Part shown: piece after piece, positions 1,521 through 20,002 of the stretch | How positions within the stretch are numbered: the stretch's first letter is position 1 | How the letters are laid out: the number at the start of each line of letters is the position of its first letter | Virus record (IMG/VR): IMGVR_UViG_3300046532_000629 | Location: 1-22,037 of that record | DNA: 22,037 nucleotides | Source of the DNA: a virus | Strand: one strand, 5' to 3' | Made by a program: the position numbers and the translations under genes | The notes under the pieces: model-generated | The model's database searches: none | The model's input: the letters and a program-made list of their open reading frames with translations, nothing else | Told to the model about the DNA's origin: nothing

Positions 1521-2614
1521 AATTTAAATCCTGTAAACGAATCATCATCAACATCTTGTTTAATACCACCAATCACATATGATTCGATTTCTGTTTCTTG
1601 GGGTGCGTTCTGTAATCCTCTTGAGTTGAACCAATGTTCAGTCCATGGTAATGGATTGTTGGTTGAACTTCTGTCGTATATAGGGTTGAGTCCGATAGCT
1701 CTTAATCTTTTGTTTGCAGTGTACTCGACATAGTGTCCAAGTAACTGAGTAGATAAACCAATCATTGACCCATGTTGGAATAGGAACTCTGCCCAATCCT
1801 TCTCTTGGTTCACTGCATCTTCATACATCTGATACACTTCAGGTTCACAATCCTTCATGACCTTGTTCATCACTTTGTTGTTCTCATGTTTCTGATAACA
1901 CTTCAATATGTGTGTTGTGATTGCAAGATGTTGAGACTCATCCCTTGCAATTAGAGATATGATTTTTGCACTTCCTTCCATCATTTTCAACTCACCAAAT
2001 CCGAATGAACAGGCGAATGAAACAAAGAATCTAATCCCTTCTAAGATGTTAACTGATATCAATGCAAGGTAAAGTGCCTTATATAAATCGTAATCATCTA
2101 TTTTATGACCCATCAATTTACGTCTTCCGATATTGATAAACTCATCGTACTTTTGTGTCACCGTTTCTGCACGAGCAAGGATTGCTGGTTCTTCTAGGAT
2201 AGTGTCGAACACATCACTAGGGTCACTATAGATATTCTTTATAATGTGAGTGTAACTTCGTGAATGTATGGTCTCCATGAAATCCCATGTAATGATACAT
2301 GACTCTAATTCAGGAATACTTACGAATGGTAAGAATGCAATTGATGGAGCACGACCTTGAACACTATCTAGTAGTGTTTGATATCTTAGATTAGATGTGA
2401 AGATGTGTTTTTGTGCATCATTAAGTTGTTGATAATCACTTCTATCTTTCTGTAAGGACACCTCTTCAGGTCTCCAAAAGAATCCTAATTGTTTCTGAGT
2501 AAGTTTATCAAATACTGGGTATTTGAACTCATCAAATCTTTGAGTGTTTAGGGGTTCGCCAAAGAACATCTGTTCCTTAGTGAAATCTACTTTCTTTTTA
2601 TTAAATACTGTCAT
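1517..2614 (-). CDS. nrdB: Ribonucleoside-diphosphate reductase, small (beta) subunit, class Ia
   Basis: 365 residues. It holds the di-iron centre and tyrosyl radical that start ribonucleotide reduction in NrdA. All ligands expected from E. coli NrdB are visible, shifted by one or more residues: Asp83 in LLDS, Glu114 and His117 in METIHSRSY, radical Tyr121 in the same motif, Glu192 in LEGIRFF, and Glu226 and His229 in ARDESQH. The C-terminus ends in an acidic stretch and FTGFKL, as expected for the tail that docks in NrdA. The presence of the tyrosine and of glutamates at the iron sites marks an oxygen-dependent class Ia-like enzyme. It overlaps the upstream oxygenase-like gene by 14 bases and the glutaredoxin gene by four. 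Upstream ribosome-binding signal is weak, consistent with coupling. Confidence 0.98.
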   Translation of the reverse strand: MTVFNKKKVDFTKEQMFFGEPLNTQRFDEFKYPVFDKLTQKQLGFFWRPEEVSLQKDRSDYQQLNDAQKHIFTSNLRYQTLLDSVQGRAPSIAFLPFVSIPELESCIITWDFMETIHSRSYTHIIKNIYSDPSDVFDTILEEPAILARAETVTQKYDEFINIGRRKLMGHKIDDYDLYKALYLALISVNILEGIRFFVSFACSFGFGELKMMEGSAKIISLIARDESQHLAITTHILKCYQKHENNKVMNKVMKDCEPEVYQMYEDAVNQEKDWAEFLFQHGSMIGLSTQLLGHYVEYTANKRLRAIGLNPIYDRSSTNNPLPWTEHWFNSRGLQNAPQETEIESYVIGGIKQDVDDDSFTGFKL

Positions 2615-3614
2615 CTAGTGTCTTCTTATCTCTGTCGGTTAACTCAAGTTCTTGTAGGTTCTTGTAGTTGTTTATATAATCTGATGGGTCGAACCAATCG
2701 TGGCCGCCACCACACCATTCATTCCAAAATTTCATTGCATCTTTAAAATAATCTTGTTGTTCATGTGAATATCTATCAAGTCTGCCATCATATGCAAATA
2801 CATTATGAGGTCTTCCGTCTGACCTTTTTCTAGTCCATGGTTGATGGAACTTATCAAATGAATTTATCTGTCCACCATGATTGATGAAGTGTAAAAACAT
2901 ATGATATGAATGGTCACCTAGAAGAGTGTCTCTCCAGTGAACTGCATTCGGCCCTTGATAAAGTAAGAGGTCTCCTACTTCTAATGATATAGGTGTTCCT
3001 TTTCTATCCCTATGAGGAATGTTTTGCATCTTCTCAAAAAATATCTCTTGACCTTCACCTCTTGCATGATTGATATAGTTCTCATCTTTCTGAACCCATA
3101 TCTTCCAAGGAGTGTTATCATCAGTTTTATACTTTAGACAAATGGTTGCACTAACTTCACATGAAGGTCGGTCACTATGTGCCTTGAGGTATGCACCTCT
3201 TTCGTATTTACGAGAATATGCATAAGTCTCTACGAGTTGCATATCAATAACTTTGTCTAGATTATCTCTTAACCATCTATGTAGGGAAACTGAAGGTGGA
3301 AAGGAATAACATCCTTGACTTTTTCTTAAGGATGATTTAGGTGAATCATGAATGATATCATCTTCCACTGCAAAGAATGTGTCATTCCACTCAGGTCTAT
3401 TTTCGATACATTTCCATGCATCCATGGTCATATCAATGATTTCTTTGGGAATGAAATTCCTTAAAACAACATAACCATTATCTTGGAAATCTTTTGTTAA
3501 TCGATTAGTCCACCCTTTAGTTGAAATTTTACCGTCATTAGTCTTAACTTCGGCACCTTCAGGTGTATCATATAATTCGACTTTTACTTTCTTATCTTCA
3601 TATTGCACAGGCAT
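2601..3614 (-). CDS. 2-oxoglutarate/Fe(II)-dependent oxygenase-like protein between nrdA and nrdB
   Basis: 337 residues from the ATG at 3614, which has GAGGA eight bases upstream; two in-frame ATGs up to 18 bases earlier lack such a signal. The middle carries a double-stranded beta-helix iron site: His146 and Asp148 in AHSDRPS, and His226 in the VGDLLLYQGPNAVHWRD segment. The last segment resembles the phage/bacterial subgroup with 'LLYxG...EHWR...G....FLH', where an Arg follows the distal His. The usual Arg or Lys about ten residues after the distal His is not obvious (GDHSYH at that place), so 2-oxoglutarate binding is not certain. The first 100 residues look like a leading helical region, and the C-terminal 80 are rich in Trp and aromatic residues. 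It overlaps nrdA by 17 bases and nrdB by 14. Substrate unknown; hydroxylation of a protein, nucleotide or base are all possible. Confidence 0.8.
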   Translation of the reverse strand: MPVQYEDKKVKVELYDTPEGAEVKTNDGKISTKGWTNRLTKDFQDNGYVVLRNFIPKEIIDMTMDAWKCIENRPEWNDTFFAVEDDIIHDSPKSSLRKSQGCYSFPPSVSLHRWLRDNLDKVIDMQLVETYAYSRKYERGAYLKAHSDRPSCEVSATICLKYKTDDNTPWKIWVQKDENYINHARGEGQEIFFEKMQNIPHRDRKGTPISLEVGDLLLYQGPNAVHWRDTLLGDHSYHMFLHFINHGGQINSFDKFHQPWTRKRSDGRPHNVFAYDGRLDRYSHEQQDYFKDAMKFWNEWCGGGHDWFDPSDYINNYKNLQELELTDRDKKTLDDSI

Positions 3615-5913
3615 CGCAATCTTCCTCATCACTATCGGGTGAAGACATCATAGGTGGGATGTATTCATTCATTGCTGAATTCTCATCCTTAATTACGTCT
3701 TCTGTTTTCCCATCCATTGTATTTTGGTAGTATGATGTTTTCCATCCATACTTATATGTCTTCAACATATCTCCTGCAAGAACTGATACGGGGACTTCTC
3801 CATCCGTAAAATTCTCAGGGTTGTAAGACCAGTTACCGCTTATTGCTTGGTCAAAGAACTTCTGCATCACTGCAATAGTTTTTATGTAACCATCATTGTC
3901 TGGCATATCCCATAGTAAGGTATAAAAGTTCTTATACATTGAGTACTGAGGTACTACTTGTTTAAGTGTTCCCTTCTTACTCTTCTTGACACTAAGGTAA
4001 TCTCTAGGTGGTTCAACACCATTTGTTGCGTTAGAAACGACACTAGAGGACTCTGACGGCATTTGTGCAGTAAGGGTAGAGTGTCTTAACCCATGAACCT
4101 TAATACACGTTCTTAATTTTTCCCAATCATGTTTCAATACATGAGGGGTAATATTATCGACATCTTTTTTGTAATGGTCGATAGGTAATGAACCCTCTGC
4201 ATATTTTGTTCTGTCAAACCAATCGCAGGCACCCTTCTCGGATGCAATCTGATTGGATGAACATAGTAAATGATACTGGAATGACTCTGTAAGTTCATGC
4301 ACTAATCGATGTGCTGCAGGGTCGTCATATTTAACTCTATTCTTTGCAAGGAAATGTGCAAGACCAATATAACCAATACCCAGTGACCTTCTTGCGAGGG
4401 TTGACCTCTTCGCAGCTTCTACAGGATACTCTTGGAAATCAATAAGTTCTTCGAGTCCTCTCACTGCAAGGTCACATAGGTTTGATAATTCATCCATCTT
4501 GATGATACCAACATTGATTGCACTTAAGATGCATAACGCTATCTCGCCATCTCCATCGATGTGCGTTAGTGGTGCAGTTGGTAGTGTAATTTCTTGACAA
4601 AGATTACTCATGTTCACCTTGTCTGTAAAACTACTATGAGAATTGCAATGGTCTATATTCATAATATAGATACGTCCTGTTTCAGCACGTTCTTTCAATA
4701 AGTCCGTAAACAATTCTCTTGCACTAACTTTAGTCTTTGGAACTGAGGTTGCACGTTCATACTTTTCGTATAGTTCGTCAAATTCATCTGTTCCAAATGC
4801 ATCATAAAGTTTAGGTACATTGTGAGGACTAAACAATGTTATGTCCTCGTTCTTTAAAAATCTTTCGTAAAATAGTTTAGATATCTGAATACTGTAATCC
4901 AGTTTTCTTACTCTGTTGTCTTCTGTTCCCTTATTGTTCTTGAGAACAAGGATGTCTTCGACCTCTTGATGCCAGATTGGAAAATGTACCGTGGCACTTC
5001 CACCCCGTACTCCGTTTTGTGTGCAACTTCTAACTGTTGCTTCAAACTTTTTAAGGAAAGGGATGACTCCTGTATGTTGGACTTCTCCACCTCGTATCTT
5101 AGAACCAAGTCCTCGTATTCTTCCTGCGTTAATTCCAATTCCAGCTCTTTGTGCAACATATCTTCCGATTGCCATGTCACTCGTAAAGATTGAATCGAGG
5201 GAATCATCGGCATCAACGAGTACGCACGATGCGAATTGTCGTAAGGGGGTTCTGACCCCTGCCATAATAGGTGTGGGTATACTGATTTTAAAAGTTGATA
5301 TTGCATCGTAGTATCTTTTGACATAATCTAATCTCGTCTCTTGGTCATAATTGTGGAATAGAGTCATTGCGATTAACATATACATGAACTGAGGTGTCTC
5401 AAACACTTCATTAGTTGACCTGTCTTGGACTAGGTATTTGTCTACAATCTGTTGTAGACCTGCATATGTAAATGTTAAGTCTCTACTATGTTTAATGTAT
5501 TTGTCGCATTCTCTTATCTCTTCTAGAGAATACATTTTAAGAATCTCAGGGTCGTATACACCTTTCGTGATATTCTTTTCAATGATTTCATTTAATGGTG
5601 GGTAAATGGTCGAGTCCTTCCACTTAGTGTTGAACACTTGTTTCTGAACTCCGAATAGTAACAGTCGGGCTGCAACATATTGGTAATTGGGTGCTTCTAA
5701 TGAGATTAAATCTGATGCAGATTTAACTAAAATCTTTTGTATGTCTATTGTTGAGATACCTTCAGAAAACTGAAGACCACTGTTCATTTCTACTAGGGAC
5801 TCTGATACACCTGTAATACCTTTACACGCCTTATGAACCATTTTATGAATTTTATCTAGGTCTATGGTAACCTTAGAACCATCTGACTTAACTACTAACA
5901 TCGGGGAATTCAT
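3598..5913 (-). CDS. nrdA: Ribonucleoside-diphosphate reductase, large (alpha) subunit, class Ia
   Basis: 771 residues, close to E. coli NrdA in size. Residues about 5-95 look like an ATP-cone allosteric domain. Catalytic residues are all visible: the disulfide pair Cys230 (FASCVLVD) and Cys461 (ALCILSAIN), Asn437, thiyl-radical Cys439 and Glu441 in SNLCQEI, the radical-transfer pair Tyr728-Tyr729 in SYYQNT, and the shuttle Cys766/Cys769 in the C-terminal DCDACAI. It converts NDPs to dNDPs together with NrdB and the glutaredoxin. The gene starts inside the primase stop (ATGA), with GGAG eleven bases upstream of the ATG, so its expression is tied to the primase gene. No intron, intein or split is seen, unlike nrd genes of some T4-like phages. 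Confidence 0.98.
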   Translation of the reverse strand: MNSPMLVVKSDGSKVTIDLDKIHKMVHKACKGITGVSESLVEMNSGLQFSEGISTIDIQKILVKSASDLISLEAPNYQYVAARLLLFGVQKQVFNTKWKDSTIYPPLNEIIEKNITKGVYDPEILKMYSLEEIRECDKYIKHSRDLTFTYAGLQQIVDKYLVQDRSTNEVFETPQFMYMLIAMTLFHNYDQETRLDYVKRYYDAISTFKISIPTPIMAGVRTPLRQFASCVLVDADDSLDSIFTSDMAIGRYVAQRAGIGINAGRIRGLGSKIRGGEVQHTGVIPFLKKFEATVRSCTQNGVRGGSATVHFPIWHQEVEDILVLKNNKGTEDNRVRKLDYSIQISKLFYERFLKNEDITLFSPHNVPKLYDAFGTDEFDELYEKYERATSVPKTKVSARELFTDLLKERAETGRIYIMNIDHCNSHSSFTDKVNMSNLCQEITLPTAPLTHIDGDGEIALCILSAINVGIIKMDELSNLCDLAVRGLEELIDFQEYPVEAAKRSTLARRSLGIGYIGLAHFLAKNRVKYDDPAAHRLVHELTESFQYHLLCSSNQIASEKGACDWFDRTKYAEGSLPIDHYKKDVDNITPHVLKHDWEKLRTCIKVHGLRHSTLTAQMPSESSSVVSNATNGVEPPRDYLSVKKSKKGTLKQVVPQYSMYKNFYTLLWDMPDNDGYIKTIAVMQKFFDQAISGNWSYNPENFTDGEVPVSVLAGDMLKTYKYGWKTSYYQNTMDGKTEDVIKDENSAMNEYIPPMMSSPDSDEEDCDACAI

Positions 5914-6947
5914 ACCTTTTTATACTCCATAAATTTTGCTTTTGCACTGAGTCCACTATAGGAACAGTCCTCTATTATACTAACAATTTCTTGTTCTGTC
6001 AATCCGTTTAATATCATATCATTGACATCTTTCAATTCATTCACTCTTCGGTCACCCCAAATACAAACGGTAAATCCTAAGTTGATAACGTGTTCAATCT
6101 TCTTAAGTATTTCTGCGTTTCGTGGTTCATTATCATAGACTAATACAGCATTTTCTTTAATACTATCGTCTAGTTTTGTGAAGTCACTTCCTGCAACAGC
6201 AATTGCATTTGGTAGGAACATTGAATCTATTGGGCCTTCGGTCACATAGATACGTTTTGTTTTGTCCACTTTATGTAGGTTGTAAATTAACGGTTCATTG
6301 TCGTCAAATTTCATGGTCATATATCGCAATGGACTGTTGTTCATTGCACGACCACTCAAACCAATTAACTGATTGTTTACATTATAAAATGGTATTATTA
6401 TTCTTGGGTCTGTTCCTAAGACTCTATCTTTATATTTTTCACACAACATTGATAAACTCTGAGGAGTTGAAGTGTACCATAAGTCTTTATAATGGACTTC
6501 AGGTATCTGTCTTTCCATCAGATAATCTCTAGCAACTGAGACCTCAGAACAAGGTTTCATTAGAAACTTAAGATTTTCAACGGTCATAATATCATTTTTA
6601 TTTAGGGATTCTTGGGTTGGTCGGAACTTAAATGCGTTAGCACTTGGCATCTTTTTTCCCTTTGGTTTGAAACCTTTTTCGGTTAACCACTCTTTCATAT
6701 ACTCTTTATATATGACTGAGAAATGGTCTTTCAAGAAGTTGATAGATGAGGTAGATTTACCACAATTATGACACTTATAGACATACGATTGGTCTATCAC
6801 AAAGTGATAACCACGTGCTTTATGTTCGTTTTTGGATGAGTCCCCACAATAGGGACATCTATGATTCAGGGTGGTGTCACCCTTCCATTTGGCGTTGTCC
6901 AAGTTGGACACGACCATCGATAAATATTTTTTCTCTAACCAAAGCAT
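5910..6947 (-). CDS. 61: DNA primase, T4 gp61-like
   Basis: 345 residues. The N-terminal zinc ribbon has CPYC at 31-34 and CHNC at 59-62. The catalytic core shows the GLSGR motif near 196-200 and a TOPRIM fold with the metal-binding glutamate Glu237 in YVTEGPIDS and the acidic pair in VYDNEPRN (Asp272, Glu274). This matches T4 gp61, which makes RNA primers on the gp41 helicase; gp41 is encoded about 13 kb upstream. The start at 6947 is kept because the N-terminal helix before the zinc ribbon has the length seen in T4 gp61. A later ATG at 6917 would remove part of it. There is no usable Shine-Dalgarno, and the ATG lies inside a long inverted repeat, six bases below a TATAAT box, so initiation is unusual. 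It heads the primase-nrd operon. Confidence 0.93.
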   Translation of the reverse strand: MLWLEKKYLSMVVSNLDNAKWKGDTTLNHRCPYCGDSSKNEHKARGYHFVIDQSYVYKCHNCGKSTSSINFLKDHFSVIYKEYMKEWLTEKGFKPKGKKMPSANAFKFRPTQESLNKNDIMTVENLKFLMKPCSEVSVARDYLMERQIPEVHYKDLWYTSTPQSLSMLCEKYKDRVLGTDPRIIIPFYNVNNQLIGLSGRAMNNSPLRYMTMKFDDNEPLIYNLHKVDKTKRIYVTEGPIDSMFLPNAIAVAGSDFTKLDDSIKENAVLVYDNEPRNAEILKKIEHVINLGFTVCIWGDRRVNELKDVNDMILNGLTEQEIVSIIEDCSYSGLSAKAKFMEYKKV

Positions 6948-6975
6948 ACACCTATTATACTATAGGTGATGCTTT
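6941..6975 (-). promoter_or_regulatory. 35-base inverted repeat covering the primase -10 box and start codon
   Basis: Arms of 14 bases (AAAGCAT plus CACCTAT on the plus strand at 6941-6947 and 6949-6955; ATAGGTG plus ATGCTTT at 6962-6968 and 6969-6975) pair perfectly except for one unpaired base at 6948, around a six-base centre. As minus-strand RNA it forms a hairpin with the primase AUG and the GGUG before it in the 3' arm. There is no run of U after it, so it is not a standard terminator. It could act as a DNA operator or as an RNA switch on read-through transcripts, as known for T4 genes such as e and soc, whose start sites are hidden in early RNA. Confidence 0.75.
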
Positions 6976-6982
6976 TATACAA
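6954..6982 (-). promoter_or_regulatory. Sigma70-type promoter for the primase-nrd operon
   Basis: On the minus strand TTGTAT (6982-6977) is followed by a 17-base spacer and a perfect TATAAT (6959-6954). The -10 box is six bases before the ATG at 6947-6945, so transcription would start at or within a base or two of the start codon, giving a leaderless or nearly leaderless mRNA. The -35 match is modest (TTG conserved), as for promoters helped by an activator such as MotA in T4; no MotA-like box is recognised. The -10 lies within the inverted repeat at 6941-6975. Confidence 0.62.
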
Positions 6983-7006: not shown

Positions 7007-7219
7007 CTACTCTGCGTTAGCTATAGCGTCATCAATACCAGCGATTTGACGTAAGTTTTGTGCAAGACTTTCATCGTATGCAAGTTTGTTACTGTCGTCT
7101 GCTGCCATTGCATCGTATCCTGTAGGTTTAGGTGGTTTTCCGTCACCTTCGAAATATGCTTTCTTCTCTACACGACTCATTGCTTCCATTTCAGCTATTG
7201 TTTTTTCTACGAATGCCAT
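7007..7219 (-). CDS. Hypothetical protein, 70 residues
   Basis: Not recognised. A short, acidic, probably helical protein starting MAFVEKTIAEMEAMSR, with a proline-rich turn (GKPPKPTG) in the middle and an Ala/Asp-rich second half. No cysteine, membrane segment or known motif is visible. The ATG has an excellent Shine-Dalgarno (AGGAG, six bases upstream) and a late-type ACTAAATA box 34 bases upstream, so it is probably an efficiently translated late gene, perhaps a small virion or assembly protein. It is the last gene before the primase promoter; no hairpin-plus-U terminator separates them, so read-through toward the primase is likely. Confidence 0.75.
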   Translation of the reverse strand: MAFVEKTIAEMEAMSRVEKKAYFEGDGKPPKPTGYDAMAADDSNKLAYDESLAQNLRQIAGIDDAIANAE

Positions 7220-7253: not shown

Positions 7254-7261
7254 TATTTAGT
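7254..7261 (-). promoter_or_regulatory. Late-promoter-like box ACTAAATA upstream of the 70-residue gene
   Basis: ACTAAATA on the minus strand differs from the T4 late box TATAAATA at two positions. It lies 34 bases before the ATG at 7219, allowing a normal leader that keeps the AGGAG ribosome-binding site. The TAA stop of the preceding membrane-protein gene is within the box. Confidence 0.4.
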
Positions 7262-19994: not shown

Positions 19995-20002
19995 TATTTA
20001 TA
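19995..20002 (-). promoter_or_regulatory. Perfect T4-type late promoter TATAAATA
   Basis: Eight of eight matches to the T4 late consensus on the minus strand, 37 bases above the ATG at 19957, giving a leader of about 30 bases with AGGA before the ATG. The TAA stop of the 58-residue gene lies inside the box. It is the best late-promoter match in the window and implies gp55/gp33/gp45-type late transcription. Confidence 0.8.

Follow-up and report, generated by a model that had tools for sequence, protein, structure and literature searches.

A hairpin around a predicted leaderless promoter at a phage primase start, and its recurrence in related viruses

In IS10 and IS50, RNA arriving from outside folds over the start of the transposase gene, while RNA from the element's own promoter misses one arm of the fold, the arms being derived from the element end. 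According to PMC3014915, long transcripts of the T4 genes e, soc, 49 and I-TevI form a helix that contains the Shine-Dalgarno (SD) sequence and/or the AUG. At gene e the helix cuts lysozyme synthesis 100-fold, and transcripts from two late promoters just upstream lack its 5′ strand; for the I-TevI hairpin deletion too, a nearby upstream promoter makes RNA that lacks the 5′ strand. Hidden starts are described there for a few T4 genes, such as those for lysozyme and homing endonucleases (PMC3014915). Lambda cI is named as leaderless in a review (PMC9031893), in which the terms "hairpin" and "secondary structure" are absent, and PMC3121790 concerns translation without an SD sequence, permitted by an absence of local structure.

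Here we analysed a 22,037-nucleotide stretch of viral DNA (the window; IMG/VR record IMGVR_UViG_3300046532_000629), in which a hairpin lies over the start of a DNA primase gene. As at the T4 hidden starts, the primase AUG is paired in the predicted fold of a long transcript, and the sequence and spacing of a putative internal promoter, with a weak -35 element, fit T4-type production of RNA without the 5′ arm. T4 uses a late TATAAATA promoter and its early RNA is silent, whereas the promoter in the window is sigma-70-like (TATAAT) and the silenced RNA would probably be late; no T4-type late promoter was found inside the window hairpin, a late-like motif lying upstream of a 70-residue gene instead. 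The locus also differs from e, soc, 49 and I-TevI in its leaderless layout and in concerning a replication gene, and from IS10 and IS50 in that its arms come from a 59-nt phage intergenic region, between the 70-residue gene and primase. Like leaderless lambda cI mRNA, the primase RNA is predicted to start at the A of AUG, and closure of such a start by a hairpin fits the reading of unstructured starts without an SD sequence (PMC3121790). Among the matches listed in the open-licence literature, no hairpin of this sort was found at a phage primase.

The hairpin and its embedded promoter

The elements and genes concerned are all encoded on the minus strand:

7254..7260, minus strand: CTAAATA, a late-promoter-like motif before the 70-residue gene, read from the sequence and resembling NATAAATA
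7007..7219, minus strand: 70-residue gene upstream of primase, without a family match; a gene of the same size is present in 7/7 window-clade loci examined
6977..6982, minus strand: weak -35-like TTGTAT, 17-nt spacer to the -10 box, read from the sequence
6962..6975, minus strand: 5′ arm, AAAGCAT (6975-6969) plus CACCTAT (6968-6962), within the -35/-10 spacer, from sequence, fold and covariation with the 3′ arm
6956..6961, minus strand: loop AGTATA in the predicted fold, containing most of the -10 box
6954..6959, minus strand: -10 box TATAAT, 6 nt upstream of the ATG, lying partly in the loop and partly in the uppermost stem pairs, read from the sequence
6941..6955, minus strand: 3′ arm in the predicted fold, ATAGGTG (6955-6949), bulged U/T (6948) and AUGCUUU/ATGCTTT (6947-6941), spanning the primase start codon and part of codons 2-3
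5910..6947, minus strand: gp61-type DNA primase, 345 amino acids (phrog_47, E 4.9e-73), with its ATG at 6947-6945
3598..5913, minus strand: nrdA, overlapping the end of primase by 4 nt

An earlier note on this DNA had described two 14-base arms with one unpaired base at 6941-6975, enclosing TATAAT and the primase ATG. Sequence and fold confirm this hairpin: the minus-strand inverted repeat at 6975-6941 can form a stem of 14 pairs with a single bulged U, closing over a loop of 6 nt. The predicted fold of the corresponding sense RNA has an energy of -20.1 kcal/mol (z -4.58), a stability that none of 200 shuffles matched. The fold agrees with the proposal that the AUG would be hidden in the stem of a long RNA. 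A scan for Watson-Crick stems of at least 11 bp (loops of 3-12, no more than one bulge or mismatch) returned it as the sole stem in the window. The same scan of four relative contigs (209 kb) gave 14 stems, against 4, 6 and 1 in three Markov resamples of these contigs, in which 3, 0 and 0 stems reached at least 13 bp.

The GGUG in the 3′ arm ends one base 5′ of the AUG, which appears too near for a normal SD site; the layout is accordingly that of a leaderless gene and not of an SD-led one. With a -10 box at this distance, a sigma-70 promoter is expected to initiate at the A of AUG or close to it; since TATAAT stands 6 nt upstream of the primase ATG, as the leaderless geometry claimed for the embedded promoter has it, the predicted transcript is leaderless. 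The proposed -35 element outside the arms is present at a 17-nt spacing, although TTGTAT is weak, matching at 3/6 positions, and the embedded promoter is for this reason absent from the list of a standard promoter scan. Rfam gave no match above the gathering score; the one sub-threshold match was SprX on the plus strand (17 bits versus 80).

An alternative reading takes the hairpin for a read-through terminator or an RNase processing site, after which the embedded promoter restarts transcription, insulation being the purpose and AUG hiding incidental. A consensus scan does call the inner stem terminator-like on both strands; the Ts it counted as a T run, however, belong to the outer arm, and right after the window stem there is no U run, GGUUAGAG coming next. 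A stem of 14 bp is also short for RNase III.

The genes after nrdA also overlap at their ends; in order, they are a ferrochelatase-like gene, nrdB and one with a thioredoxin domain. The ferrochelatase-like gene (phrog_2954, E 7e-36; window 2601-3632) thus lies between nrdA and nrdB in a dNTP operon.

Arm changes among related primase promoters

Primase relatives in viral contigs include L001 (100% identity), L002 (84%), L003 (78%), L004 (78%) and L005 (72%), and each carries a hairpin at the primase start. The arms of L002-L005 are written in other letters than those of the window (for example ATATCAT with ATGATAT in L005), and the -35 equivalents are TTGTAA (L002), TTGTAA (L003), TTGTTT (L004) and TAGACA (L005). 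In the predicted folds of all five distinct hairpins (window and L002-L005), the AUG is fully paired with CAU, which argues against a terminator or processing site. Pairs of genomes differ at up to 8 shared paired positions on both sides, with none between L003 and L004; because the MAFFT alignment A1 put the arms out of register, these pairs were counted by script. The native assignment of arms was the best of 120 permutations of the five hairpins (-17.3 kcal/mol versus -9.5 kcal/mol for swapped arms). Searching viral contigs for the exact pattern of the window's arm letters gave 0 matches, as expected if arm sequences turn over. L123, of the same clade (62% identity to L005), has no comparable stem.

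Beyond this clade, we pooled 250 primase loci from four relative sets (80, 10 of 12, 80 and 80), L122 and L125 being excluded because their sequence stops short of the primase start. Removal of 2 loci without a start, 3 that were too short, 68 duplicates and 96 without a fitting -10 box (5-8 nt upstream of the primase ATG) left 81 distinct leaderless promoters, with -10 to ATG spacings of 6 nt in 52, 7 nt in 25, 8 nt in 3 and 5 nt in 1. In the contigs, this spacing likewise peaks at 6 nt (11 versus 2.2 expected).

Across the 81 promoters the native arms form duplexes of -8.10 kcal/mol on average, compared with -5.50 kcal/mol (sd 0.25) when 5′ arms were permuted (z -10.6, 0/20,000). The compensating arm changes in relatives sharing the upstream gene, which the earlier note had named as a check, are thus seen in the window clade and joined by this permutation test. 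The bulk of the covariation signal lies between the -10 box and the ATG (z -7.4 for that region alone); the ATG with 9 nt gave z -3.5 (4/20,000), and codons 2-4 alone gave no pairing signal (z -0.9). All three AUG bases are paired upstream in 23/35 folds of -9 kcal/mol or better versus 4/46 weaker folds, a difference that is partly true by construction. With a hairpin defined by -10 kcal/mol and rank 4 or better, 27/81 promoters carry one, in 7/15 clusters at 55% identity, and 54/81 are without a strong hairpin; near-identical sequences persist in some of these primase counts.

A chance palindrome arising from AT-rich promoter sequence could be suspected, as a -10 box is in part complementary to itself and strong hairpins are missing from most lineages. 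This is highly improbable, given that no permutation of the full set of arms and promoters attained the native pairing and that close relatives show changes on both sides of the stem.

In a separate clade of 11 sequences (alignment A2), AAUGUC over the start codon has GACAUU from the -35 region as its pairing partner; the inner stem occurs as CACAG/CUGUG, CAUAG/CUAUG and UACAG/CUGUA. The covariation score of this clade is 0.164 versus 0.091 when shuffled (0/500); 2 pairs show a both-sided change, which is inside the shuffle range (139/500).

None of 10 named phages examined presents a clear case. In six cyanophages (S-WAM2, S-P4, S-CAM22, S-SCSM1, S-RSM4 and S-RIM8), the primase match begins at most 3 nt from the end of the upstream gene or overlaps it, and no TATAAT-ATG layout was seen by eye; their primase-start stretches nevertheless have fold energies between -13.9 and -18.2 kcal/mol. 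No clear hairpin is present in Melnitz (-4.7), Mosig (-6.5) or AG-345-O18 (-9.3 kcal/mol), and the primase start of HTVC008M folds at -12.1 kcal/mol.

RNA structure, DNA sites and other promoters

The earlier note had named a simple DNA operator as the alternative, that is, a phage or host repressor binding the palindrome over the -10 box and thereby blocking the promoter. To its credit the dyads are centred on the -10 box. The conserved half-site of a dimeric-repressor operator is absent, however: the arms are almost wholly different when close relatives, or promoters within one genome, are compared. The window stem also contains a one-base bulge. A fixed-axis palindrome profile of the primase promoters shows no single axis. 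We also compared oppositions in the stems with a score that is strand-neutral, treating G-U and A-C alike. The strong primase stems (score at least 20, 21 sequences) hold 38 G-U versus 7 A-C oppositions, whereas permuted arms give 452:323 (Fisher p 0.00045). The excess varies with the threshold (p 0.017, 0.067, 0.0066 and 0.00045 at scores 14, 16, 18 and 20), and without L121 and L059 the ratio is 34:7 (p 0.0024). Moreover, in 20/21 strong stems the sense RNA has a more stable fold than the antisense RNA; this bias exceeds that of permuted arms, with p 0.001 for a score threshold of 20 and 0.009 for 18. The preference for G-U over A-C together with the sense-fold bias points to structure in the sense RNA rather than a DNA operator. 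With arms that differ among close relatives and wobble pairs that are strand-specific, a sequence-specific operator at primase is disfavoured, and we consider this reading unlikely. A recurrent sense-RNA hairpin over a leaderless primase promoter, by comparison of these sequences, is well supported.

Other promoters of these viruses were scored in control sets that exclude primase sites (the Melnitz primase and several primase loci). Neither 15 non-primase leaderless promoters (z -0.18) nor 146 non-primase leadered promoters (z 0.7) showed a pairing excess. The idea that all leaderless promoters have hairpins is therefore unsupported; a contrast of 7/20 versus 0/49 depends on primase sites, which supply 6 of the 7.

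Leadered primase promoters do show an excess (74 promoters, 77 minus duplicates of leaderless loci; z -4.86, 0/5,000). An SD-like AGGA is paired in L205, the strong stems of L189, L194 and L199 stop about 14 nt before the AUG, and L150 has a U-rich stretch 3′ of its stem. What these promoters share may be protection against read-through, which in the window clade would take the form of AUG hiding. The three hairpins that miss the AUG and the U-rich stretch of L150 would suit the terminator or processing site introduced above, as would a hairpin in contig G001 (the virus of L001), where a perfect 15-bp stem at 3226-3260 surrounds TATAAT before a peroxiredoxin-like gene (phrog_2281), upstream of the SD site, and is followed by UUUAUUAUAUU. 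Because AUG and SD of that gene are downstream of the stem, the hairpin would not hide them directly. Weighed against the AUG-containing stems of the window clade, the terminator or processing reading seems to us improbable for the window.

Short dyads also flank the -10 box in leaderless-type promoters of gp43 polymerase genes (phrog_262) of related phages. From 160 polymerase loci, removal of 59 duplicates, 18 startless or short loci and 4 without a -10 box left 79 distinct promoters, with the box 6 nt before the ATG in 60/79 and dyads at z -9.95 (0/5,000); within two clades, z was -5.2 and -5.9 (0/5,000 each). The loci are these:

L296-L455: gp43 polymerase loci
contig G004 (virus of L005), 3104: gp43 polymerase
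contig G001 (virus of L001), 8818: gp43 polymerase

Most of these stems are short, and neither a G-U nor a sense bias reached significance, as might be seen at an operator; the gp43 dyads might be operators or weak hairpins.

Several further sites were noted in the contigs. At 400-450 of G004, a hairpin of -23 kcal/mol with TATAAT inside and the AUG in its stem precedes a 473-residue gene whose product matches a DNA-methylase family weakly (PF01555; 24.3 bits, slightly below the cut-off of 26.7), and this is the single strong case at a non-primase gene. Contig G002 (virus of L002) has, in coding orientation, a 14-bp hairpin around TATAAT at 30754-30790, with the start codon more than 60 nt downstream; it may be a terminator with a promoter inside. 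A further class of promoter, TTGACA-18-TATACT, occurs in contigs G001, G003 and G004; most of its members precede a leader of about 20-35 nt, and it looks like the early class of these phages.

Read-through RNA and the proposed role of the hairpin

PMC2984593 gives NATAAATA as the late promoter of cyanophage S-PM2. The similar CTAAATA is strand-biased in the window (9:0) and in contigs G001 (15:0), G003 (19:2) and G004 (12:0), G002 not being counted. In 7/7 clade loci, the distance from the start of an upstream [CA]TAAATA is 34-44 nt to the ATG of the 70/71-residue gene, which has an AGGAG- or GGA-type SD site, and 295-318 nt to primase. On the minus strand of the window, [CA]TAAATA occurs upstream of open reading frames at 20001, 16411, 13197, 9676, 9166 and 7260. 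As judged from sequence, these strand-biased motifs are likely late promoters of this phage group, and the CTAAATA at 7254..7260 is the likely source of late read-through RNA, which presupposes both that it acts as a promoter and that its RNA crosses into primase. The consensus scan found no other terminator-like site on the minus strand from 8382 to 6968. The earlier note had envisaged late read-through from structural genes; the late-promoter-like motif before the 70-residue gene favours the late part. As for the structural part, the upstream genes scanned match families of unknown function, a few enzymes or nothing. Across lineages, hairpin presence tracks neither the strand of the upstream gene nor late-like motifs, so the idea that hairpins follow upstream late motifs is unsupported.

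The best explanation, which we regard as probable, is that the inverted repeat acts as a read-through silencer built around a leaderless primase promoter. It builds on the hairpin, its geometry, the arm covariation, the sense-strand bias and the conserved late-like motif, all shown by the sequences; from these we infer transcript starts, timing, translational effect and coupling. RNA entering from upstream, probably late RNA from the CTAAATA site before the 70-residue gene, would have both arms and fold, burying a primase AUG that has no usable SD site. RNA from the embedded TATAAT would have its 5′ end on the A of AUG or beside it, lack the 5′ arm, stay open and be read as leaderless mRNA. 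Closure of the primase start might, by translational coupling, also reduce expression of the remaining operon genes, since primase, nrdA and the next genes overlap. Against silencing stand the 54/81 promoters without a strong hairpin, the hairpins that miss the AUG and the 0/10 named phages with a clear case.

More tentatively, T4-like phages outside the enteric group may use leaderless promoters that insulate themselves at core replication genes (primase and, more weakly, gp43), with the -10 box as loop and the start region as arm. The hairpin would form only in read-through RNA, late polycistronic RNA would thus be unable to make replication proteins, and the arm letters would be free to turn over while the fold persists. 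We hold this generalization possible, though short of probable.

Covariation over many lineages points to a logic similar to that of the T4 hidden starts at a replication gene, reversed in that late RNA is probably the one silenced, and merged with a leaderless promoter. Cyanomyoviruses are described as lacking MotA and AsiA in PMC2984593. If the proposed role is true, the hairpin would offer phages without MotA/AsiA a cheap separation of replication from late expression.
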